64,000 nt of DNA from an uncultured Clostridia bacterium. GTDB taxonomy: Bacteria > Bacillota > Clostridia > Christensenellales > Aristaeellaceae. The stretch spans positions 124,001 through 188,000 of the forward strand of contig CAMKNZ010000001.1 in assembly GCA_946414315.1 (NCBI GenBank), given 5' to 3'. Positions 5,218 through 23,845 of the stretch are shown one piece after another. Each line of letters starts with the position of its first letter. The first letter of the stretch is position 1. The position numbers were made by a program, and so were the translations under genes. Under the pieces are notes generated by a model. It was not told where the DNA came from and searched no databases. It was given only the letters and a program-made list of their open reading frames with translations.

Positions 5218-6276
5218 CTATTCCAGTTTTTCTCCGTCAATCCGGATACTTGCTGCAATCATTTTCGACAGGAAATAAAGGATCGCGCATTCGGCTTCCT
5301 GCCAGATCCGGCGGTTTCGCTTCTCTGCGCAGATCAGATACCCGTTTGTTTCCATCCCGTAACCGATCCGCAACACGCAGAGTGTTTCCATTTCAAACCT
5401 GTTTAGTGTTGTATGGAACCCGGGACTTCTCCTTCTCACTTCCTCCATATCATTTCCGGCAAACAGATCGTCATTCTGAAGCAGCAGGTCCAGTCCTGTC
5501 ACCGGTTCATTCATCTCCGGATTTCTGATCGCTCTCATAACGCCTTCCGATCCCACATAATACAGATCGGAGATCTGAAGCTCTTCCATCAGCAACGGCA
5601 TGACGTTCCGGAGTTTATTGATCAATCCCGGCGCAAACTCAAACTGGCGAATCATCCCGCTGAAAGCGGTATACAATCCGTGTTTTGCGATCTGCCGGAT
5701 CTCGATATCCCGGTGTTTCTCTTCCACATAGATGATGTGGCAGTTCCGGCCTTTGGACTTTCCGCGGTACAGCGTTTTGTCGATCAGTTCAAAAAGGCGG
5801 GTATAGTTCTGCGCGTCTTTCGGGTAGCTCGCGCACCCTACCGTTCCGGTAACAAACGGGCTGCAGTCCTCCAGACGGATATTCCTGCGCAGGACCTTTC
5901 CTTGATACATTTCCGAAAAAAACGCTTTATTCGCGTCATAGGTTATATCCCGGAGATTGACGATCAGGAACTCATCCCCTCCGAACCGGCCGACCAGGCC
6001 GTTCCCGTCCAGCATCGCCGTCAGGTCCTCCGCTACACGCACCAGAATCTGATCCCCGGCAAAATGACCGTAGGTATCGTTGATAAACTTGAAATTATCC
6101 AGGTCCAGCATGGCAAAGGAAAACGGGATCTCATGTTCGATCAGCCACTGGGCAAACCAAAGAATATGCCCGCGGGATACGACGCCGGTCAGATAATCCG
6201 TCAGCGCTTCCGGAGCGGTATCCTTGATCCTCTCCGCGAAATACGGATACTTTGTCAGTTGTTCCACTGTATACAT
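5218..6276 (-). CDS. Diguanylate cyclase: N-terminal GGDEF domain plus C-terminal GAF-like region
   Basis: Intact GRFGGDEF, DLDNFKFINDTYGH; no TM or signal peptide. Confidence 0.85.
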   Translation of the reverse strand: MYTVEQLTKYPYFAERIKDTAPEALTDYLTGVVSRGHILWFAQWLIEHEIPFSFAMLDLDNFKFINDTYGHFAGDQILVRVAEDLTAMLDGNGLVGRFGGDEFLIVNLRDITYDANKAFFSEMYQGKVLRRNIRLEDCSPFVTGTVGCASYPKDAQNYTRLFELIDKTLYRGKSKGRNCHIIYVEEKHRDIEIRQIAKHGLYTAFSGMIRQFEFAPGLINKLRNVMPLLMEELQISDLYYVGSEGVMRAIRNPEMNEPVTGLDLLLQNDDLFAGNDMEEVRRRSPGFHTTLNRFEMETLCVLRIGYGMETNGYLICAEKRNRRIWQEAECAILYFLSKMIAASIRIDGEKLE

Positions 6277-6307: not shown

Positions 6308-7288
6308 TCATGCCATCGCCTGATCCGGGCGCCAGCCGTCGTCTCTGCCCAGTACCCTGACCAGGGTAATCTCTTCTGCTTCCTTGTCCGTCAGCCGTTT
6401 CTGTTCCGGATGCCGCGTTTGCTGATTCGCCCGCGCCCCTGCGGTTCGCCATTCTCCGCAGCGTTTGGTCACAATCCGTTCTTCGTCCCAGTCGGCAAAC
6501 CCTTCCGGAGCCACATGATCATCCATTTCGCATTCAAGGAAAAGTGTGCAGGAATGCTTCCGCCACGGACGTCCAAGGAATCCTGCTCCCGGTTTGCATT
6601 CCCCCGTCAGGCGGCATCGGTGGAACACAAAACCGAAAGGCTGGTTTTCATTCGTGTTCGTCGCTGTATACCATCCTCCGCGTTCATTCATGAACAGCGT
6701 ACAGTTCTCAAACCAGCACCGGTACGGGCCGAAAATAAAATCAACATCTCCGCGAATCAGGCAGTTTTCGAAATACTGCCGGCTGCCGGTCAGCGGTCCG
6801 TCTTCAACCCGTGCCGCCTGCTCCGCACAGCCGGTCCGGCTGCCGATATCCGCTTTCACATTGGGCAGCCGGATCGGTCCGCAGAACAGCGTATCCTGAT
6901 GAGCAATCAGTCTGCAGTTCCGCCATATACCCCGGTCTCCAGCCGCGTAAACCGCTACGGCCTGTCCGACCTCCCGGCCGTCTCCGGCGTCATTCACAAC
7001 AGTCAGGTTTTCGACGGTAATGTCTTTGCCGGTAGTCATCACCGTAGCGGAAAGAAAGGTGCCCTTCTCCGTTCCGTCTTCATAACGGTCCTTCGCGCAG
7101 CCGTTCCAGGCGATTACTGTCCGATCCCGGTCTTCTCCCTTCAGGAAAACATGATCTCTATGAACCACAATCTTTTCCCGGTATTCCCCGGCACGGATCA
7201 GAACCTGTCCGCCTGTTTCCGGAAGCGCGTCGACAGCGGCCTGAACACCGGTATAATCGCCGCTTCCGTCTTTTGCCACAATCACCAT
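6308..7288 (-). CDS. Pectinesterase (CE8), cytoplasmic (no signal peptide)
   Basis: CE8 motifs AHQDTL, GDVDFIFG, LGRPW; N-terminus MVIVAKDGSGDYTGVQAAVDALP. Confidence 0.92.
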   Translation of the reverse strand: MVIVAKDGSGDYTGVQAAVDALPETGGQVLIRAGEYREKIVVHRDHVFLKGEDRDRTVIAWNGCAKDRYEDGTEKGTFLSATVMTTGKDITVENLTVVNDAGDGREVGQAVAVYAAGDRGIWRNCRLIAHQDTLFCGPIRLPNVKADIGSRTGCAEQAARVEDGPLTGSRQYFENCLIRGDVDFIFGPYRCWFENCTLFMNERGGWYTATNTNENQPFGFVFHRCRLTGECKPGAGFLGRPWRKHSCTLFLECEMDDHVAPEGFADWDEERIVTKRCGEWRTAGARANQQTRHPEQKRLTDKEAEEITLVRVLGRDDGWRPDQAMA

Positions 7289-9754: not shown

Positions 9755-11134
9755 ATGAATCGATCCGGTCTTTCCGAATGCGTTCTTCGTTTTACGCAAC
9801 GTCTTCAGAAAGAAGATGTCAATATGCATGGCTTCCTTCTTTCTGTCCGCGGCAAGAAAATCGCCGAGGCTTACTATGCTCCTTTCCGTGAAGGACAGCC
9901 CCATCGTCTCTATTCAGTCAGCAAGACCTTCACCGGGATCGCCGTCGGTATGCTGGCGGATAGCGGGAGTCTTACCCTGGATCAGCATATCACTGACTTT
10001 TTCCAGGACTGGCTGCCGGATAATCCTTCCCCGTATTTACTTCATCTGACAATCAGCGATATGCTCCGCATGTCTACCTGTTATCGACGGACAGCCTATC
10101 GTGAAGGGATTGATTCAGACTGGGCACGTTCGTTTTTTACCGGTTCTCCGGATCATGAGCCCGGCATGGTGTTCGCTTATGATACCGGTTGTTCACAGGT
10201 TCTGGCAGCTCTGGTCAGGCGAATCAGCGGTATGGAAGTGATGGATTATCTGGAAGAACACCTGTTTCACCCTTTATCTTGTCAGGATCAGCGGTACTGG
10301 CTCCGGGATCCCTCCGGATGCTGTCAGGGAGGAACCGGCTTATGTATGAGTCTGCGGGATTTGCACCGAATTGCAGAATGCCTGCTTCGCGGCGGTGATG
10401 GGATCATTCCCCGCTGGTATGCTGAAAACATGGGAAAGAAGCACATCGATACTTCTCTGCAGGACAAGGAAGAAGAACGATACGGTTATGGCTGGCAATG
10501 CTGGCGCACCCGGGCCGGTTGGTCTCTCTATGGAATGGGCGGTCAATTATCTATTCTCTGTCCCGATAAGCAAACTGTCTTGTCCACAATCGCCGATACA
10601 AGGTTGGATCCATTTGGAGTACAACGAATCTATAACGCTTTTTTCGATGAAATCTGGCCCTTCCTGCCAGGAGACGGCGGGATTCCGGAAGGCACTCCTG
10701 ATCAGCCGCTCATCCTGAGCCTGTCCGTGCCCGGCCTAAAAGACTGCCCCGCAGCCGGATTCCTCGGAAAAGGCTGCTATGTCTTTCCCGGCAGTAACTC
10801 TCTCGGCCTGAAAGCGCTCACATTGTCCGATACAGAACTGAAGATGTCCAGGACCACATGCTCTGTTTCACTTCCCTATGCCCGGGGAAAAACTCTTGAG
10901 ATCCCCTGGCCCGGCTATTCGGATATCCCCGCGCTGGTCTCCGCAGGCTGGATCGAAGACAGGGTTTTGCGTCTGCGCTGCCATGCGGTCGGGAATGCTC
11001 CCTGTGGGTTTGATATGCTTATCAGCCTGTCGAAAGACCGTATTACAGTTCAGAGCAGGTGTTCGTCCGATCCCCTGACAATCGGCTATGACGGAATCGC
11101 CTCCGGCTTCCTGCAGAAAGGAGACTGCCAGTGA
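9755..11134 (+). CDS. Serine hydrolase, beta-lactamase/transpeptidase-like fold, with C-terminal extension
   Basis: SxxK motif SVSKTFTG, YDTG motif, MLRMSTC; sits between GH4 and GH43 genes. Confidence 0.8.
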   Translation: MNRSGLSECVLRFTQRLQKEDVNMHGFLLSVRGKKIAEAYYAPFREGQPHRLYSVSKTFTGIAVGMLADSGSLTLDQHITDFFQDWLPDNPSPYLLHLTISDMLRMSTCYRRTAYREGIDSDWARSFFTGSPDHEPGMVFAYDTGCSQVLAALVRRISGMEVMDYLEEHLFHPLSCQDQRYWLRDPSGCCQGGTGLCMSLRDLHRIAECLLRGGDGIIPRWYAENMGKKHIDTSLQDKEEERYGYGWQCWRTRAGWSLYGMGGQLSILCPDKQTVLSTIADTRLDPFGVQRIYNAFFDEIWPFLPGDGGIPEGTPDQPLILSLSVPGLKDCPAAGFLGKGCYVFPGSNSLGLKALTLSDTELKMSRTTCSVSLPYARGKTLEIPWPGYSDIPALVSAGWIEDRVLRLRCHAVGNAPCGFDMLISLSKDRITVQSRCSSDPLTIGYDGIASGFLQKGDCQ

Positions 11135-12960
11135 TCCCTGAGCATGCATTGGAAGCAGTCCGTTCCGGCTGCTGCGATCTCATAGACCGAATGGCAGAAA
11201 ACGGCGTTTTTGAGAATATCACCGTGGAAGGTAAATCCCTTTTAGTCAGAACTGCGGCGGAAACAGGACAAAGTGTCATGCTGCGCTTTCTTTTTGAAAA
11301 TCATCACCTTTATTCTGCAGATCCGGACCATCGGGGCCGGAATCTGCTGCATGCTGCTGCTTCCTCCGGAGATGCGGATACAGTTCGGTTCGCGATGGAC
11401 GTCCTGGGCTTTGATCCACTCAGCGGAGACCTTCAGGGCATTACACCGCTGGATCTCGCACAGCAGGCCCGGAATCAGGACGCTTTCTGCCTGCTGTCCG
11501 CCCGTCTGGATTTTACGCCGGACCGGGGTTACCGCAATCCGGTTCTGAGGGGATGCCATCCGGATCCTTCTGTATTACGGGTCGGGGAGGATTATTATCT
11601 GGTCAATTCTTCCTTTGTATTCTTTCCCGCCCTGCCGGTTTATCATTCCCGGGATCTTGTGCACTGGCGGGAAATCAGCCATGCCGTTCATGACCTGGAA
11701 TCGTCCGGGTTGGCCGGACTTCCCGGCGGATTCGGATACTGGGCTCCGGATATTTCTTTTTTCCAGGGAAAGTACTGGGTCGTCGCCACCCTGAGAAGAA
11801 ACACCAAACCGTATCGGCTTCAGATGATCACCTCCGCCGCAGATCCCCGCGGGCCATGGGATCCGCCGAAATTTCTGCCGCTGGACGGCATTGATCCTTC
11901 CCTCTTCACCGACAAGGACGGCCGACGGTATATCCTGCTGAATCCCGGTGCCATGATTGCTGAAATCAGCGATACCGGAGAACTGCTTTCGAAGCCCCGG
12001 CTTCTTTCTTTCGGTTCCGCACATATCAAGCCCGAAGGTCCCCATCTGGTCAGAAAAGATGAGTGGTACTATCTTTTTCTGGCCGAGGGCGGCACCGGGG
12101 AAGAGCATATGGAAACCGTGCTGAGAAGCCGCGTTCTGACCGGACCATATGAGAGCTGCCCCTTCAATCCGATCCTCGGCAAAAAGAATTTTCTGTCTCC
12201 AATCCGCCGCAGCGGCCATGGAAAACCTGTGCAGCTTCCGGACGGAAGATGGTATATGGCCTACCTCTGTACACGTCCTGTGGAGGAACGTACCCTGATG
12301 GGCCGTGAAACCGCACTGGATCCGATCGTCTGGACAGCAGACGGCTGGCCTGTGGTCAACAGCCTGAAAGGTCCAAGCTGCCTGCAGGCGCTTCCTTTTC
12401 CGGACACCTGTCCCGATCCTTACACGCCTGATTTTGAAATCTCACCTCGGAACGATCCGGATACATTTACGGACCGTTCCGGCGACAGGGTCAGGCTTCG
12501 CTGCGGGCCGGATCCCGCTTCGCTGCTGCCCTGCAGCCTGCTGCTGCGCCGTCAGTCTGAACCGGAACTGGTCCAGACCGCCAGGGTGGACCTGAGCCAG
12601 GCCTGCGAAGGGGACATCGGTGCGCTCACCGGGTATTACGACGAACAAAGCTTTTATCTCTTTGGGCTTAGAAAGGAGAAAAAAGGATGCTCCCTGATCC
12701 TGACTGAGCAGGTTGGGGACAGCCGGAACACACGAATCCTTGCTGCTTTAGATGTGCTGGATGCCGTACTGTCCGTCCGTGGCGAAGGTCTGGATCGCCG
12801 CCTGCTTCTGCAGGACAGGACCATATCTGTCCTCCGTACGGAGTACCTTTGCGATGAAGGTCTCCCGAACAGCAAGCGCTTTACCGGTGCGATGTACGGC
12901 CTGGCGGCGGTCGGCTCCGGCACCGTGGTTTTTGACGAACCGGAAACCTGTGCCCTGTGA
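11131..12960 (+). CDS. Ankyrin-repeat domain fused to GH43 family glycosidase
   Basis: N-terminal ANK-like repeats (GRNLLHAAASSGDADTVRFAMDVLGFDPLSGDLQGITPLDLAQQA); GH43 signature YRNPVLRGCHPDPSVLRVGEDYYLVNSSF and KPEGPHL; GTG start overlaps previous stop. Confidence 0.88.
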   Translation: MIPEHALEAVRSGCCDLIDRMAENGVFENITVEGKSLLVRTAAETGQSVMLRFLFENHHLYSADPDHRGRNLLHAAASSGDADTVRFAMDVLGFDPLSGDLQGITPLDLAQQARNQDAFCLLSARLDFTPDRGYRNPVLRGCHPDPSVLRVGEDYYLVNSSFVFFPALPVYHSRDLVHWREISHAVHDLESSGLAGLPGGFGYWAPDISFFQGKYWVVATLRRNTKPYRLQMITSAADPRGPWDPPKFLPLDGIDPSLFTDKDGRRYILLNPGAMIAEISDTGELLSKPRLLSFGSAHIKPEGPHLVRKDEWYYLFLAEGGTGEEHMETVLRSRVLTGPYESCPFNPILGKKNFLSPIRRSGHGKPVQLPDGRWYMAYLCTRPVEERTLMGRETALDPIVWTADGWPVVNSLKGPSCLQALPFPDTCPDPYTPDFEISPRNDPDTFTDRSGDRVRLRCGPDPASLLPCSLLLRRQSEPELVQTARVDLSQACEGDIGALTGYYDEQSFYLFGLRKEKKGCSLILTEQVGDSRNTRILAALDVLDAVLSVRGEGLDRRLLLQDRTISVLRTEYLCDEGLPNSKRFTGAMYGLAAVGSGTVVFDEPETCAL

Positions 12961-12983
12961 CTGAACAACCTTCCGGAGGTTTG

Positions 12984-14411
12984 ATGATGCGCTACCAGAA
13001 TCCCATTCTGTATATGGATCTCTCCGACCCTGACGTCATCCGCGTCGGGGAGGACTTTTATATGACAGCGTCCTCCTTTACTTACGTGCCGGGTCTGCCG
13101 GTTTTACATTCCCGGGATCTGGTGCATTGGGAGATCGTCGGATATGCCGCTGACCGCCTCCCTGCCGCGCGGTATGATCGGCCCGCCCATGGCTGCGGTA
13201 TCTGGGCACCGAGCTTCCGTTATCATCAGGGCCTGTTTTATATTTACGCCTGCATGCCTGACGAAGGGTTGTACGCCTGGACCGCGAAGGATCCTGCCGG
13301 TCCCTGGCAATGCCATCTGGTCAAGGCGGTCACCGGTTGGATCGATCCCTGCCCGCTCTTCGATGAAGACGGGGTCTGGCTGATCCATGGCTTTGCGGCC
13401 AGCCGGGTCGGCATCAACAATATTCTGTATATCCATCGTCTGTCTGATGACGGTATGTCAGTCCTGGATAAAGGGCGCAGGGTTTATGACGGTGCGGAAC
13501 ACGGAGATGTCACGGTGGAAGGTCCCAAACTTTACCGCCGCGACGGTATTTACTGGATTCTCTGCCCTGCCGGAGGCGTCCGTACCGGCTATCAGCTGGC
13601 GCTTCGCTCCAACAGCCTTTTCGGCCCCTTTGAGCGACGAATCGTGCTGGAGCAGGGCCCTTCCCCGGTCAACGGACCGCATCAGGGAGGCTGGGTTGAT
13701 GACGGTCACGGCGGGGATTGGTTCATTCATTTCCAGGACGTCGGCCCCTACGGACGGATCCCGCACCTGCAGCCGGTAGACTGGTCGGACGGCTGGCCTG
13801 TCATGGGCAATCAGGGAATACCTGTCGCTGAGTGGGATACAGGGCTTCCGGCTGTTCCTGTTTCTGTTCCTCTCTCAGATTTTTTTGAGACGGCGATCGG
13901 GCCAGCCTGGCAGTGGCAGGCTAATCCGGATCCTTCCTGGTTCACCCTGCTCAGACCCGGCCTGCGTCTCCACGCCGTACCGGCAGACCGCCTGTATGAA
14001 GCCGGTTCCTTCCTTTCCCGGCTGATGACCAGCCGTAATTTTGATATGGATGTCCGGCTGACCGTCCCCCGATCCGATACGGCTGTCACGGGAATCGGAC
14101 TCATGGGGAACAATTATTTCTATGCCGCTCTGCGCAATGGGGCTGTCCGACTTGTCAGCGGCAGTGCGGAAGAAGCGGAAAAAGAACTGCTCTCTTTCCC
14201 GTATAAAAAAGCAGAGCTCCTGCTCCGCCTTCGGGTCCGCAATGGATTTGTTTCTTTCTTCTTTGGCACGTTCGGCTGTGATCCCGAGCCGCTCGGCGGA
14301 CCCTTCCCGATGGTTCCGGGAGGATGGACCGGCGCCCGTCCGGGAATTTTCTGCACCGGGAACAACGGGTATGCGGACTTTCATTCCGTGCTGATCACTG
14401 AATACCGATAA
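12984..14411 (+). CDS. GH43 family glycosidase (xylosidase/arabinofuranosidase type)
   Basis: YQNPILYMDLSDPDVIRVGEDFYMTASSFTYVPGLPVLHSRDLVHW, TVEGPKLYRR; ggagg RBS before ATG 12984. Confidence 0.9.
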   Translation: MMRYQNPILYMDLSDPDVIRVGEDFYMTASSFTYVPGLPVLHSRDLVHWEIVGYAADRLPAARYDRPAHGCGIWAPSFRYHQGLFYIYACMPDEGLYAWTAKDPAGPWQCHLVKAVTGWIDPCPLFDEDGVWLIHGFAASRVGINNILYIHRLSDDGMSVLDKGRRVYDGAEHGDVTVEGPKLYRRDGIYWILCPAGGVRTGYQLALRSNSLFGPFERRIVLEQGPSPVNGPHQGGWVDDGHGGDWFIHFQDVGPYGRIPHLQPVDWSDGWPVMGNQGIPVAEWDTGLPAVPVSVPLSDFFETAIGPAWQWQANPDPSWFTLLRPGLRLHAVPADRLYEAGSFLSRLMTSRNFDMDVRLTVPRSDTAVTGIGLMGNNYFYAALRNGAVRLVSGSAEEAEKELLSFPYKKAELLLRLRVRNGFVSFFFGTFGCDPEPLGGPFPMVPGGWTGARPGIFCTGNNGYADFHSVLITEYR

Positions 14412-14417
14412 TACCGG

Positions 14418-15542
14418 TCATTTCCCGGTCCTGAGCAATTCCGTATAGCACAGCACAAAAGGCGCGACGCCCTTGGCATCATTGGCTACCACCGGTTCCG
14501 AAACATAGTATTCAAAGCTGCCGTCCCGGCGCCGGTTATTTTCCGGGCCCAGGCCCGCAACCAGGCAGATACCGCCAAGTTCCGGCTCGCCATCTTTCCA
14601 GATCAGTCGGTCTGCCAGCGCCTGGAAGGTCTTTCTTCCCTTTGTTGCAAAGTCCTTGTCCAGGACGCCGAGCCGGGTGCCTTTCAGCATACCGCAGGCA
14701 ATCATGGAGCTGCCGCTCGATTCCAGATAATTTCCTTCCCGGCCGCCCTGGTCCACCACCTGCCAATACAGGCCGGTCTCAGGATCAACAAATCGGGCAA
14801 CACTTCCAGCCAGATCTGTGAAGATTTCAGCGATCTCCTTCCTTTCCGATCCTTCCGGCAGGATTTCGCACAGATCCGCCAACGCCATGAAAAACCAACC
14901 CAGTGCCCGCAGCCAGAAGCAGCGGCTCAGACCGGTTTCCGGATTTGCCCAGAAAGCTTTCCTGCTCGCATCATAGCCATGATAGTACAATCCTGTTTCA
15001 GAATCCCGCATCCTCGCTCTTACGATCCGGACCTGCTTGAGGATATCCGACATATCGCCGTTTCCGAAATGTCTTTGATACAGCGCTTCAAAGGGCTGCG
15101 CCATATAAATCCCATCCAGCCAGACCTGATCCGGGTATATTTTTTTATGCCAGAAGGAACCTTCCGATGTGCGTGGCTGCTGTTCCAGTGTTCGATGCAG
15201 CATCTCCGCCGCCTTCCGGTATTTCTCCTTGCCGGTCATTTGATATACGAGAAACAGCACCCGGCCTTCATTGATATCATCCAACTGGCGTTTCTCCGAA
15301 TCAAAGGTCAGGATCTCACCGTTTTCCCGGACAAAATAGTCTGTAACCCGTTCGGCAAAAGATGCATAACGCAGATCACCCGTAATATCTGTCATGGAAA
15401 ACAGTGCTGTCAGCATACAGCCGTCGATATAATTCCAGGTCGTCGGCTTCCCTTCCCGGATCTTTTCCAGATTCCATGCAGTTCTATCCGGTGTGCTTTT
15501 TTCCACCAATCGCAGAATATACTGCTCAATACGGTCATTCAT
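14418..15542 (-). CDS. GH105 unsaturated rhamnogalacturonyl/galacturonyl hydrolase
   Basis: YteR/RhiN-like TWNYIDGCMLTAL, VWLDGIYMAQPF, RALGWFFMALAD, YLESSGSSMIACGM. Confidence 0.88.
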   Translation of the reverse strand: MNDRIEQYILRLVEKSTPDRTAWNLEKIREGKPTTWNYIDGCMLTALFSMTDITGDLRYASFAERVTDYFVRENGEILTFDSEKRQLDDINEGRVLFLVYQMTGKEKYRKAAEMLHRTLEQQPRTSEGSFWHKKIYPDQVWLDGIYMAQPFEALYQRHFGNGDMSDILKQVRIVRARMRDSETGLYYHGYDASRKAFWANPETGLSRCFWLRALGWFFMALADLCEILPEGSERKEIAEIFTDLAGSVARFVDPETGLYWQVVDQGGREGNYLESSGSSMIACGMLKGTRLGVLDKDFATKGRKTFQALADRLIWKDGEPELGGICLVAGLGPENNRRRDGSFEYYVSEPVVANDAKGVAPFVLCYTELLRTGK

Positions 15543-17008: not shown

Positions 17009-17917
17009 TCATTCCTTTACGGCACCGATATTGATACCTTTGACAAAATACTTCTGGAGGAACGGATAGAGAATCATGAACGGCAGAATTGCCGTAATGA
17101 CACATGCGTTCCTGATCGTGTTCTCCGTGGCTCCTCCCACAGATTCCGGAAGGTCGGAGGACTGGATCATATCACGCAGCTTCATCTGGAAATTGTACAG
17201 ATTCCGGTCGGTGATATAGAGCTTAAAATTGGTATAATCATTCCAGTAAGCCACGGCAAACATCAGACCGATAGATGCCAGCGCTGCTTTGGACAGGGGC
17301 AGTGCGATCCGGAAAAAGGCTCCCATTGGGGTACAGCCGTCCAGGTCAGCGCTCTCAAAAAGCGACTTCGGGATACCTTCAAAAAAGTTACGCATCAGTA
17401 CCAGGTTGTACACGTTGATCGCCGGCAATAGAATAGGCCCGAGCGGGTTGTCCGTCAGTCCGATTCCGCGCATAACCAGATAGCTCGGAATCATCCCGCC
17501 GGAAAAAATCATCGTGAACAGCAGAATATTCGCAAACATCGTCCGGAACGGCATGTCCCACTGGATCAGCACATAGGCGCCCATCGTAGAGAGTGTCAGG
17601 CCGAGGAAAGTTCCCGCTACAGTGGTATAGATGCTCACCCACAGGGGCCGCAGCAGGCTCTGATTACTGAAAATGGATATATAACCGTCCAACCCGAATT
17701 TGGTTGGCAGGATTTTCATACCATAACCCGTTGTCAGATCCAGAGAGTCAATCAGCACCTTCCAGATCGGAACAATAATAAGCAAGCAGATAATAACAAA
17801 GACGAAGCCGTTCAGAAAGTTGAAGAATGTATACTGACTCTTCGGTTTGTTCAGGTGCGGCGGTCCCTGTACCTTCAGACCTGCGGGTGTGGTGTACTCA
17901 GCATTTTGTTTTGCCAT
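17009..17917 (-). CDS. CUT1 carbohydrate ABC transporter permease (LplC/YtcP-like)
   Basis: EAA motif region ESADLDGCTPMGAFFRIALPLSKAALASIGLMFAV; end VKGINIGAVKE. Confidence 0.9.
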   Translation of the reverse strand: MAKQNAEYTTPAGLKVQGPPHLNKPKSQYTFFNFLNGFVFVIICLLIIVPIWKVLIDSLDLTTGYGMKILPTKFGLDGYISIFSNQSLLRPLWVSIYTTVAGTFLGLTLSTMGAYVLIQWDMPFRTMFANILLFTMIFSGGMIPSYLVMRGIGLTDNPLGPILLPAINVYNLVLMRNFFEGIPKSLFESADLDGCTPMGAFFRIALPLSKAALASIGLMFAVAYWNDYTNFKLYITDRNLYNFQMKLRDMIQSSDLPESVGGATENTIRNACVITAILPFMILYPFLQKYFVKGINIGAVKE

Positions 17918-17932
17918 AATGCGTTTCCCCCT

Positions 17933-18883
17933 TTACACAATTCCGCGTCCGCGTACTTTCTTGGACGCATAATTGCAAATCAGCATCAGCGCCAGACCCA
18001 CCAGAGACCTGAACAGTCCGATCGCTGTTGTATAACCATAATCCGCGGAAGCTCCTGCATTGAACGTCTGATAGTAGACATAGGTCTGCAATACGTTGGT
18101 AGCACGCTTCACACTGTCATTCTGCAATACAAACACACTTTCGAACAGGTTCATGATTTTGGCAAGGTTCAGGATCAGCACGGTAATGATGGTATTCCCC
18201 AGTGCCGGGAATGTTACGTACCGCATCTTCTTCCAACGTCCGGCACCGTCAATGGAAGCAGCCTCATAAATTCCAGGATCAATGCCTGTCAGGGTTGCCA
18301 TAAAGATAATCGTCTGCCAGCCTGTTTCACGCCATACGTTGATAATATAGTACCATATCCGCCACCAGCCTTTGTCTGCCAGGTAGTAGACCGGTTCGCT
18401 GATCACGCCCATCTTGATCAGCAGCTGGTTAATCAGTCCGCTGTTTGACGGGGATAACAGCAGACTGAATACGGAAGCTGTCACAACCCAGCTCATAAAG
18501 TGAGGCAGGTAGATGATTGTCTGACTCAATTTTTTGAATTTCAGAGAAATCATCTCATTCAGCAGCAGAGAGATAATTACGGCAAACCCGGTATTCAGCA
18601 ACAGCTTCACGACCGAAAAAACAATCGTGTTCGTAAAAGATACAGAGAACTGAGACTGACTGAACAGTTTTTCAAAGTTTGCCAGTCCGACCCATTTAGG
18701 ATCGCCGATGATCTTCCAGGAATAAAACGCATACCGGATACCGAACATCGGCGCATAATGGAAAACCGCCACAAATACAAGTACGGGGATAAACATCAGA
18801 TAAAAACCCCAGTATTTGGACATCCGCTTCAGCAACGGTTTTTTCCTTGCCCTGATCGTCCCGTTGGAAGTAACAGAGGCCAT
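17933..18883 (-). CDS. CUT1 carbohydrate ABC transporter permease (LplB-like)
   Basis: YEAASIDGAGRWKKMRYVTFPALGNTIITVLIL; start at ATG 18883 (MASVTSNG). Confidence 0.9.
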   Translation of the reverse strand: MASVTSNGTIRARKKPLLKRMSKYWGFYLMFIPVLVFVAVFHYAPMFGIRYAFYSWKIIGDPKWVGLANFEKLFSQSQFSVSFTNTIVFSVVKLLLNTGFAVIISLLLNEMISLKFKKLSQTIIYLPHFMSWVVTASVFSLLLSPSNSGLINQLLIKMGVISEPVYYLADKGWWRIWYYIINVWRETGWQTIIFMATLTGIDPGIYEAASIDGAGRWKKMRYVTFPALGNTIITVLILNLAKIMNLFESVFVLQNDSVKRATNVLQTYVYYQTFNAGASADYGYTTAIGLFRSLVGLALMLICNYASKKVRGRGIV

Positions 18884-18976
18884 GTTAAGCACACCTTTCT
18901 GCTTCTGTCTGGTCACAAGAAGATAAGCGGGGGCGGCGGTTTTACCGCCGCTCCCGTTGTATCAGTACTTACAGGA

Positions 18977-20467
18977 TTATTTGTTGAGTTCGTTCAGGCT
19001 CGCGACGATCTCGTTGGACATTTCCAGGCCGCCTTCGTTCTCAAACTTGGCAAAACCTTCCTCAACAGAGAGGTTACCCAGTGCGATGTCAGCGATAATC
19101 TCGCCCTTCAGGGTGGTCAGCTCGCCGTTCAGTTCGCTCAGCGTGGGAGTTGCCGGGACAATCGCGGCCAGACGGCTGTTTTCATTAAACAGTTCAGCGG
19201 CGGCTTTTGCTTCCGGCTTTACGCTGTCTTCCTTGGGATCATAGTAACCGTCTGCGAAAGATGCCAGGCTCAGCATGGGATCAATATGGTTCTTGGTATA
19301 CAGGGTGCCTTCTTTTTCCAGGTTCTCCAGCATATGGAACTGACCGTCTTCATAGGTCTTTTCTTTTTCAGTACCGGCCAGTACGGTACCGGCGCTCTTG
19401 GACCAGTGTACGCCTTCCACACCATAGGTCCACAGCATCTGGCAATCTCCGCCATCAAGCATAGTATCGATAAAGGCATCGAAAACCTTCTGAGGATCGG
19501 AGCACTTGGAAGTGATACACCATACCGGAGGTACGCGGTCGTAGTATGCCGGCAGGCCTTCCAGGGGTTTCAGGGCGATCAGTTCGCCGTCCTTGCCGTT
19601 GGCTTCCAGATTGGTCTTCAGGTTAGTTGCCCAGGTACCCGCCCAATAGGTGAACACGCCGAACTTGTCGTCATAGAATTTGTTGCGGGCGTCCGCAGTG
19701 GTATTGGTCAGGGTTTCCTTGTCAATCAGGCCGTCCTTCACGGCATCCTGAATCCGCTGCATAGCAGCTTTCATGTTATCCTGCGTGAAACCGTCCACCC
19801 AGCTGCCATCTTCCTGCTGGATAAAATAGGGATATGCATCCTGATAGAATTCAGGCAGATAATTGACAAAGGGCGCTTCATTCCCGACAAAGCCGGCCGC
19901 TGCCACTGCATAGGTACCGTACTTGGCGGTGAAAGCTTTCAGCATCTCAATGTAAGCATCGTAGGTAGTGGGGGCTTCAGTGATACCGCAGTCATCCATC
20001 CAGGCTTTCTTCACATAGGTCACACAGCCGTTGCCGCGATAGGGAGCAAACCCGTAAAGTTTTCCGTCAATCTTCAGGCCTTCGAAAACATTGTCGCCGT
20101 TAAAGCGTCCGCTGTTTTTGGTCTGGCTGTTTTCCCACGCCTCAGTCATATCCCACAGGGCGCCGTTTGCTGCGTAGTCAGCATAATAAGTGGAAGAAAG
20201 GATCAGTACATCCGGCCAGTCTCCGGAAGACATGCGCTGCTGCATAACATCATAATAAGCGCTGTGGTCCGGCTGGATGATCTCCAGGTCAAAACCGGGA
20301 TGCAGTTCTTCCCAGCGGGCTTCAAAAGCGTCCCGTCCGTTGTTCTGATCGACGACAGTCGTGTCAACCATCATCACAATCTTGAAAGTCTCCTCCGCGG
20401 AAGCGGAGATGACAACCATGCTCATGCACAGGGCAAGAGCCAGCATCAAGGCTACCAGTTTCTTCAT
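18977..20467 (-). CDS. Extracellular solute-binding protein (LplA-like)
   Basis: Signal peptide MKKLVALMLALALCMSMVVISASAEE; SBP fold; followed by two permeases. Confidence 0.9.
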   Translation of the reverse strand: MKKLVALMLALALCMSMVVISASAEETFKIVMMVDTTVVDQNNGRDAFEARWEELHPGFDLEIIQPDHSAYYDVMQQRMSSGDWPDVLILSSTYYADYAANGALWDMTEAWENSQTKNSGRFNGDNVFEGLKIDGKLYGFAPYRGNGCVTYVKKAWMDDCGITEAPTTYDAYIEMLKAFTAKYGTYAVAAAGFVGNEAPFVNYLPEFYQDAYPYFIQQEDGSWVDGFTQDNMKAAMQRIQDAVKDGLIDKETLTNTTADARNKFYDDKFGVFTYWAGTWATNLKTNLEANGKDGELIALKPLEGLPAYYDRVPPVWCITSKCSDPQKVFDAFIDTMLDGGDCQMLWTYGVEGVHWSKSAGTVLAGTEKEKTYEDGQFHMLENLEKEGTLYTKNHIDPMLSLASFADGYYDPKEDSVKPEAKAAAELFNENSRLAAIVPATPTLSELNGELTTLKGEIIADIALGNLSVEEGFAKFENEGGLEMSNEIVASLNELNK

Positions 20468-22294: not shown

Positions 22295-23845
22295 TTATTG
22301 TTCTGCAATCTCTTCAACATTGAACGTCTCAAGGCGTTCTCCCTGTATCCCGTCCATGCGCACATGATCCAGCGTGAGCCTCCGGATGAACTTGGCGATG
22401 ATTCCGCGTCGGCAACACTCTTCCACTCCCAGCGCCATAGCTGGGATCATGGGTTTTGCCTCCGGGTCAAAATCAAACCGGCAGTCCCGCAGGATCAGAT
22501 GCTCCATGGGCTTCTCCGGCAGGCCCATGGCATAGGCCGCACAGGCTTTGCACCCGGAAGCGGCAACCCGCTCAAAGATCACCTTTCCGATCTCTGGAGT
22601 GGTTTCATCCACCGGAAGCTTTTCCCGGCTTTGCACCCGTTCCGTTTTCCCATCTTTATCACAGAAATAGAAGCTGTTGACCACCAGGGGCATCTTTACC
22701 CCATCCATCCGAATATCTTCAAACCGGATTCCGTCAACCACACCGTCCCTGCCCCGGTCCCTCCGGGTCTTGATCCGCAGCGCGCGGTCATTTCCCTTCA
22801 TATAACAATGATGGGCGTAAACCTGTTTGACGCCGCCGGCCATCTCGCTGCCGACCGTCACGCCGCCATGGCCGTCCAGCAGTGCGCACCAGCCGATCTC
22901 CAGATTCTCACAAGCCCGTTTGTATTTTCTGCCCAGATCTATTTTCCCGCTTTTGATAGCGATACAGTCATCCCCCACGGAAATCTCCGCGCCGAGCAGC
23001 CTGACGTTCCTGCAACTCTCCGGATCAAAGCCGTCTGTATTCGGACTGTCCCAGGGCGCCTGGATCCGGATATCAATGAAATCCAGGTCCTCGCTGTAGG
23101 CAGGATGCAGATTCCAGCTCGGACTGTTCGTAAAGGTCAGTCCCTGGATCAGCATGCCTTTGCAGCGCTGGGTATACAGTAGGTTCCCACGGCTGGCAAT
23201 CCGGATCTCCTTGGGATTGACCCACCAGTCGCCTTCCTGTGCACGTCCGTCAACCACACCTTCACCGATGACTGCTGTATCCGTCAGATCGATACCATTC
23301 AAGGCCGCGGCAAACCCGTCTGTCGCACAGCCCTCAAACAGGCCGAGCAAAATCTCACCATTCGCATTGTCCGCTGGCGCCTCTCCCGGCAGAACCGGGA
23401 AGCGATTCCGGTCTGTCAGCAGCTTCAGCACCGCTCCGTCCGCGATTTCAAGCATCATATAGCTTTTCAGGAACAGCGGTCCGGTTACATATTCACCTGC
23501 GGGAATCAGAACCCTGCCGCCTTCCGGGCAGCAGAGGATCGCCGCCTGAAGCATGGCGGTATCTTCTGTTTCGCCGTCGCCTTTCGCGCCGAAACTTCTG
23601 ACATCCAGCGTACAGGTTTCCCGCTTTGTGCGGAATGTGAGCGTTTCTCTTCCATCCTGCTCTGTGCGGCTCTCCAGAATATAATCCGTATCCGGTTCCA
23701 GATCGAACAGGGAAGTGATCGACCGGTATTCCTCTCCGAGACGCTCCCCATCGAGAAACAACTCATGCTTTCTCCGGGCTTCATACAGTCCTTCCGGATC
23801 CAGCAGCACACTGCAGCTGCGAGATGTAACGCACAATATTTCCAT
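22295..23845 (-). CDS. GH28 polygalacturonase-family glycosidase (cytoplasmic, N-terminal Fn3-like region)
   Basis: GH28 motifs NTDGFDPE, GDDCIAIKSG, GHGGVTVGSE, RIKT; no signal peptide. Confidence 0.93.
   Translation of the reverse strand: MEILCVTSRSCSVLLDPEGLYEARRKHELFLDGERLGEEYRSITSLFDLEPDTDYILESRTEQDGRETLTFRTKRETCTLDVRSFGAKGDGETEDTAMLQAAILCCPEGGRVLIPAGEYVTGPLFLKSYMMLEIADGAVLKLLTDRNRFPVLPGEAPADNANGEILLGLFEGCATDGFAAALNGIDLTDTAVIGEGVVDGRAQEGDWWVNPKEIRIASRGNLLYTQRCKGMLIQGLTFTNSPSWNLHPAYSEDLDFIDIRIQAPWDSPNTDGFDPESCRNVRLLGAEISVGDDCIAIKSGKIDLGRKYKRACENLEIGWCALLDGHGGVTVGSEMAGGVKQVYAHHCYMKGNDRALRIKTRRDRGRDGVVDGIRFEDIRMDGVKMPLVVNSFYFCDKDGKTERVQSREKLPVDETTPEIGKVIFERVAASGCKACAAYAMGLPEKPMEHLILRDCRFDFDPEAKPMIPAMALGVEECCRRGIIAKFIRRLTLDHVRMDGIQGERLETFNVEEIAEQ

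Follow-up and report, generated by a model that had tools for sequence, protein, structure and literature searches.

An enzyme that joins four ankyrin repeats to a GH43 glycosidase propeller and a C-terminal X19 beta-sandwich is, with near certainty, encoded by a 609-residue open-reading frame in the window (the whole 64,000-nucleotide stretch of Clostridia DNA analysed here). The ankyrin domain was gained once by an ancestor of the enzyme and then kept in every relative sampled, and its fixation throughout a GH43 clade makes a clean natural case of a protein-interaction fold inside a glycosidase. We give about even odds (roughly 0.5) that the domain would be integral to the enzyme and self-directed in its role, at the approach to the active site or in a contact between identical subunits; docking to one fixed pathway partner appears less likely.

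The ankyrin-GH43-X19 protein

The frame runs from a GTG start at 11131 to 12960 on the + strand, the span given by an earlier sequence-only reading, and is supported by Pfam matches, the starts of orthologues and an AlphaFold2 model. It overlaps the upstream gene by 4 bases and the downstream gene by 4 bases, and a Shine-Dalgarno-like GGAG, read directly from the sequence, lies 7 nt 5' of the start (11120–11123, +). Orthologue starts, picked by distance and codon, nearly all fell 129–135 residues before the YRNP motif, with three at 119–122, and most are preceded by a Shine-Dalgarno-like sequence. A wrong start, or an assembly artefact fusing two genes, was rejected because dozens of orthologues in separate genomes have a matching span and a similar Shine-Dalgarno position. 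No signal peptide was evident by direct reading, the N-terminus entering the first ankyrin helix without a hydrophobic stretch, which fits the earlier view that such a peptide is lacking; the enzyme is presumably cytoplasmic.

The same reading had proposed an ankyrin domain fused to an apparently complete GH43 catalytic domain, and this observation is confirmed by the Ank_2 and GH43 profiles, by ankyrin matches in the PDB and by the predicted structure. Its description of the N-terminal part as a periodicity was correct as to the presence of repeats but too loose, as four defined repeats occupy residues ~3–127 (11137–11511, +), judged from Pfam, the model and homologues. Pfam Ank_2 matches residues 42–123 at E = 6e-12, with a score above the gathering threshold, and reaches E = 3.8e-15 when given just the first 135 residues; a phmmer search of the PDB with this part recovers ankyrin-1 and designed ankyrin proteins. 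The AlphaFold2 model places helix pairs at 4–12/15–23, 32–44/48–56, 72–79/82–91 and 106–112/117–126 (model numbering plus one), followed by the propeller; together with the Ank_2 match these give the two or more consecutive helix-turn-helix repeats of ~33 residues that define the fold. Chance periodicity as the source of the signal was rejected on the Pfam and phmmer matches and the modelled helix pairs. Ankyrin repeats are classic protein-binding modules, and they are joined to soluble metabolic enzymes in mammalian glutaminase and iPLA2beta, both eukaryotic and of other catalytic folds, with no homology implied.

The catalytic domain, a five-bladed propeller at residues 134–407 (11530–12351, +), covers the whole PF04616 profile (positions 1–288 of 288, E = 9.8e-76), and its completeness is thereby upheld. 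A C-terminal X19/GH43_C2 beta-sandwich, omitted from the sequence-only reading, follows at residues 449–597 (12475–12921, +), where a PF17851 match (E = 1.8e-10) and sandwich strands in the model give the protein the type III GH43 layout of propeller plus X19. Built on 40 orthologues, the model has a pLDDT of 94.5 and a pTM of 0.91, the size of the latter suggesting a fixed arrangement of the three domains. The last ankyrin helix ends ~7 residues before the first propeller strand in this model, with no low-confidence segment and no flexible linker at the junction. A model of the Monoglobus-type protein, made from a shallower alignment of 20 sequences, shows the same four helix pairs (pLDDT 84.6, pTM 0.79).

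Active site and relatives of known structure

The window enzyme is predicted from its sequence to be active. D145 in HPDPS (11563–11565, +), the predicted general base, D255 in GIDPS (11893–11895, +), the predicted pKa modulator, and E302 in PEGPH (12034–12036, +), the predicted general acid, are invariant over 40 aligned homologues and align with the triad of BoGH43A, Asp34 (base), Asp140 and Glu189 (acid)(PMC4967831). The LPGGFGYWAPDIS loop (residues 197–209, 11719–11757, +), drawn from the alignment and from comparison between clades, contains W204-A205, which align with the −1 subsite residues Phe93-Ala94 of BoGH43A. That enzyme and BoGH43B, alpha-L-arabinofuranosidases of Bacteroides ovatus described in the same study, are two-domain GH43 proteins like the one in the window, but they lack ankyrin repeats and act on xyloglucan oligosaccharides, and the +1 residue Tyr187 of BoGH43A corresponds to K300 here. 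The substrates of the window enzyme are probably oligosaccharides taken up in pectin use, from which it would cleave terminal arabinofuranose or xylose.

Foldseek against the PDB returned two-domain GH43 enzymes, and none of the 50 matches listed was an ankyrin-GH43 structure. The best of them, BlXynB of Bacillus licheniformis (6ms3; 33% identity, TM normalised to the target 0.86), is also the best PDB sequence match (6ms2/6ms3, E = 1.6e-88) and shares the propeller, the C-terminal sandwich and the catalytic motifs, but has no ankyrin domain. Though not among the rows of the trees described below, BlXynB bears the motif forms of the ankyrin-less sister clade, GIWAP and KGHTG, against GGxGYWAP and KRFTG in the ankyrin-bearing clade. 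Among the residues that mark off the ankyrin-bearing clade from that sister, G199, G200, Y203 and S209 adjoin the WAP loop, and D504, E505, F584 and A587 belong to X19 motifs. This pattern fits an active site whose surroundings have changed; a link to the ankyrin domain as its cause is only possible, and a change of substrate alone may explain these residues. A weak alignment pairs F584 (KRFTGA) with GFTG in 5z5d, a GH43_12 enzyme (PMC6887791), and on that footing the residue sits in an FTG motif similar to that of the X19 loop which supplies an active-site Phe in known type III beta-xylosidases (PMC6887791). Those beta-xylosidases, of GH43_11 and GH43_12, carry X19 as here, but their described layout has no N-terminal ankyrin domain (PMC6887791). 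Solved relatives include 5z5d and 7jvh, the latter also labelled GH43_12.

Origin and spread of the fusion

Trees were built on the GH43 and X19 part of the protein and the ankyrin domain was mapped onto them as a label. A single change accounts for the label both in an 87-row tree (support 100/100, and in all 200 bootstrap trees) and in a 99-row tree with 52 ankyrin-bearing rows (SH-aLRT 99), and repeated gains were rejected on the rows sampled in both. No loss was found among the 48 ankyrin-bearing rows of the 87-row tree or the 52 of the 99-row tree, nor did any ankyrin-less row fall within the fused clade. Low-scoring GH43 matches of the family search were partly absent from the tree, and their scores suggest a more distant position. 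Among the members of the nearest ankyrin-less clade are paralogues from those Monoglobaceae genomes that also have the fused form, together with enzymes of further families in the phylum; the paralogues, with BlXynB as a solved close relative, are ready controls for the fused enzyme. In the genus of the window, one locus (L154, G006:C42:76000-90000) holds a 1071-residue open frame with two tandem GH43 catalytic domains, one of the ankyrin-less sister clade and one of another clade.

A one-genome curiosity was rejected, the fusion being present in many genomes of the family and class. The host family has the fused form in 46 of 308 genomes, counted as rows whose match begins inside the ankyrin domain, and a class-wide sample added two further families, Monoglobaceae (f48) and f58. 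A pattern scan of genome contigs gave only four close loci, and no fused form was found outside the class in the phylum sample at E ≤ 1e-110. Across 45 genomes of the genus there were 14 matches, 11 of which lie within the ankyrin-GH43 enzyme by open-frame length and coordinates, and the Ank_2 model found no other ankyrin protein in the window genome (60% complete).

One class-level protein, from genome G815, is 99% identical (632/637) to that of Monoglobus pectinilyticus NZ_OY725742.1, which puts the fused enzyme in a cultured pectin specialist of the human gut, hidden by its annotation label: the copy, WP_320691383.1, has the plain annotation "family 43 glycosylhydrolase", and Pfam finds the ankyrin domain there too. 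G815 also has an ankyrin-less sister paralogue elsewhere (L147). NZ_OY725742.1 is filed as a plasmid, yet its genes lysA, scpAB, recO and era are chromosomal in kind. A fusion that was widespread and had been characterised before would have undone the sequence-only reading; among Clostridia the fusion is fairly widespread, but we found no characterisation of it. The open-access literature searched contained no report of the ankyrin-GH43 architecture, prior notice in subscription papers, CAZy or InterPro being possible.

Two departures from the usual form were seen. The most diverged fused protein (L127/L140, genome G902) has a shortened ankyrin part, with ~108 residues before YRNP, and a long branch. 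In another genome a second ankyrin-GH43 copy (G148:C87:6420-7945) is split over two frames, and is therefore probably a frameshift or an assembly error.

Gene settings and the role of the ankyrin domain

The window locus is a pectin-use locus. The enzyme is directly preceded by a serine hydrolase of beta-lactamase fold (9755–11134, +; PF00144, E = 1.1e-27) and followed by a second, ankyrin-less GH43 from a different clade (12957–14411, +; PF04616, E = 1.5e-61). Around them lie a pectinesterase (6308–7288, −; PF01095, E = 7e-48), a GH88-type unsaturated uronyl hydrolase (14418–15542, −; PF07470, E = 4.6e-85), an ABC importer with two permeases and a solute-binding protein (17009–20467, −; PF00528 at 17933–18916 and PF01547 at 18977–20467, with 17009–17917 assigned by clustering only), a GH28 polygalacturonase-like gene (22295–23845, −; PF00295, E = 1.1e-36), and KduI-like, AraC regulator and GH4 genes. 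The serine hydrolase has no obvious role in pectin use; its best NCBIfam match is far below the cut-off. A GGDEF diguanylate cyclase gene (5218–6276, −) flanks the locus.

Such a setting suits the proposal of the sequence-only reading that the enzyme may be scaffolded to another cytoplasmic protein of its pathway, the ankyrin domain in that case tethering it to a pathway enzyme or to a component of the importer at the inner face of the membrane: the gene overlaps both the serine hydrolase and the second GH43, and two importer permease families (22 and 20) are, with the second GH43, the commonest neighbours over 50 ankyrin-bearing loci, whose genes were called by codon-usage scoring. These counts, like those for the second GH43 (21 of 50) and the serine hydrolase family (12 of 50), are lower bounds because contig ends cut some stretches. 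No gene family, however, was common to more than 22 of the 50 neighbourhoods, and a dedicated, operon-encoded partner is unlikely because no neighbour covers all of the loci. In M. pectinilyticus (L162, NZ_OY725742.1) and at L118 the gene stands solitary among housekeeping genes, in the former between lysA and a DUF2520/yhbY pair with scpAB near, and this downstream pair recurs beside related Monoglobaceae copies; the Monoglobus copy has none of the candidate neighbours. The ligand-contact positions of the ankyrin fold, taken as in designed ankyrin proteins, gave no sign of a shared partner either, their mean relative entropy of 1.73 bits lying below the domain mean of 1.91 (52 sequences) instead of showing preferential conservation, although conservation over so broad a group can overlook lineage-specific partners. 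The scaffolding proposal therefore lacks a conserved candidate partner gene as well as a preferentially conserved binding face, and we consider it unlikely.

Faces were assigned from the canonical repeat register, as general knowledge, and not from model coordinates. On the outward side of the second helices the mean is 1.97 bits, with R52 and E56 at 3.0, and certain ligand positions (S79, V91, A113) are conserved among the 13 members of the clade to which the window protein belongs. Accessory domains of glycoside hydrolases often bind carbohydrate, those of GH43 usually being carbohydrate-binding or beta-sandwich modules, and the ankyrin groove might by that precedent act as a binding module or sensor for substrate or a metabolite. 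We think this very improbable, as the homologue alignment shows no conspicuously conserved aromatic platform on the ligand face, and a cytoplasmic enzyme acting on soluble oligosaccharides would gain little from it.

Repeat 3 (residues 66–99, 11326–11427, +) is the most conserved repeat in the profile, at 2.5 bits, with repeat 4 at 1.9, repeat 1 at 1.3 and the catalytic domain at 3.2. Weak conservation of repeat 1, lower conservation than in the catalytic domain and a single origin without loss would all suit a folding cap, by which the ankyrin domain serves only to stabilise the propeller or to cover one of its edges, having become fixed through dependency after a chance fusion. Relatives lack the domain, however, including the closest solved one (BlXynB, 6ms2), and several of the residues specific to the clade are close to the active site; we hold such a cap to be improbable.

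The self-directed role preferred here would start from a cytoplasmic, exo-acting two-domain GH43 enzyme of propeller and X19, whose ancestor gained an N-terminal four-repeat ankyrin domain once; ending about a dozen residues before the strand of the catalytic base, that domain may shape the approach to the pocket or form a homo-oligomer contact. Arguing for it are the confidence of the model (pLDDT and pTM) with an ankyrin helix running almost directly into a propeller strand, and the matching helix pairs of the Monoglobus-type model; one gain and no loss, with retention in very different gene settings, solitary copies included; ligand positions slightly below the domain mean, together with the clade-specific residues near the WAP loop and within X19 motifs; and the pectin setting of the locus. 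It is weakened by the modest conservation of the ankyrin domain (1.9 bits against 3.2) and of repeat 1 in particular, by the chance that a partner gene lies elsewhere in the genome, where a comparison of neighbourhoods would miss it, and by the indirect bearing of pTM on ankyrin-propeller and subunit contacts. More tentatively, at somewhat below even odds, the domain would be a catalytic accessory that arose once in Clostridia, as part of the substrate approach or as an obligate homo-oligomer interface. If so, a protein-interaction module would have turned into a specificity element, marking a distinct, uncharacterised enzyme clade.

One large group of loci has a setting of its own, in which an FMN oxidoreductase, an SDR and a FAD-binding protein precede the ankyrin-GH43 gene, mostly followed by a Gfo/Idh oxidoreductase and a binding protein (each family in 11–13 loci; Pfam assignments are for the FMN, FAD and Gfo/Idh proteins). 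These loci (L074, L076, L077, L078, L079, L080, L081, L083, L086, L048, L049, L050 and L066) have the appearance of an uncharacterised operon for breaking down glycosides, in which redox chemistry may act on the aglycone or the sugar.
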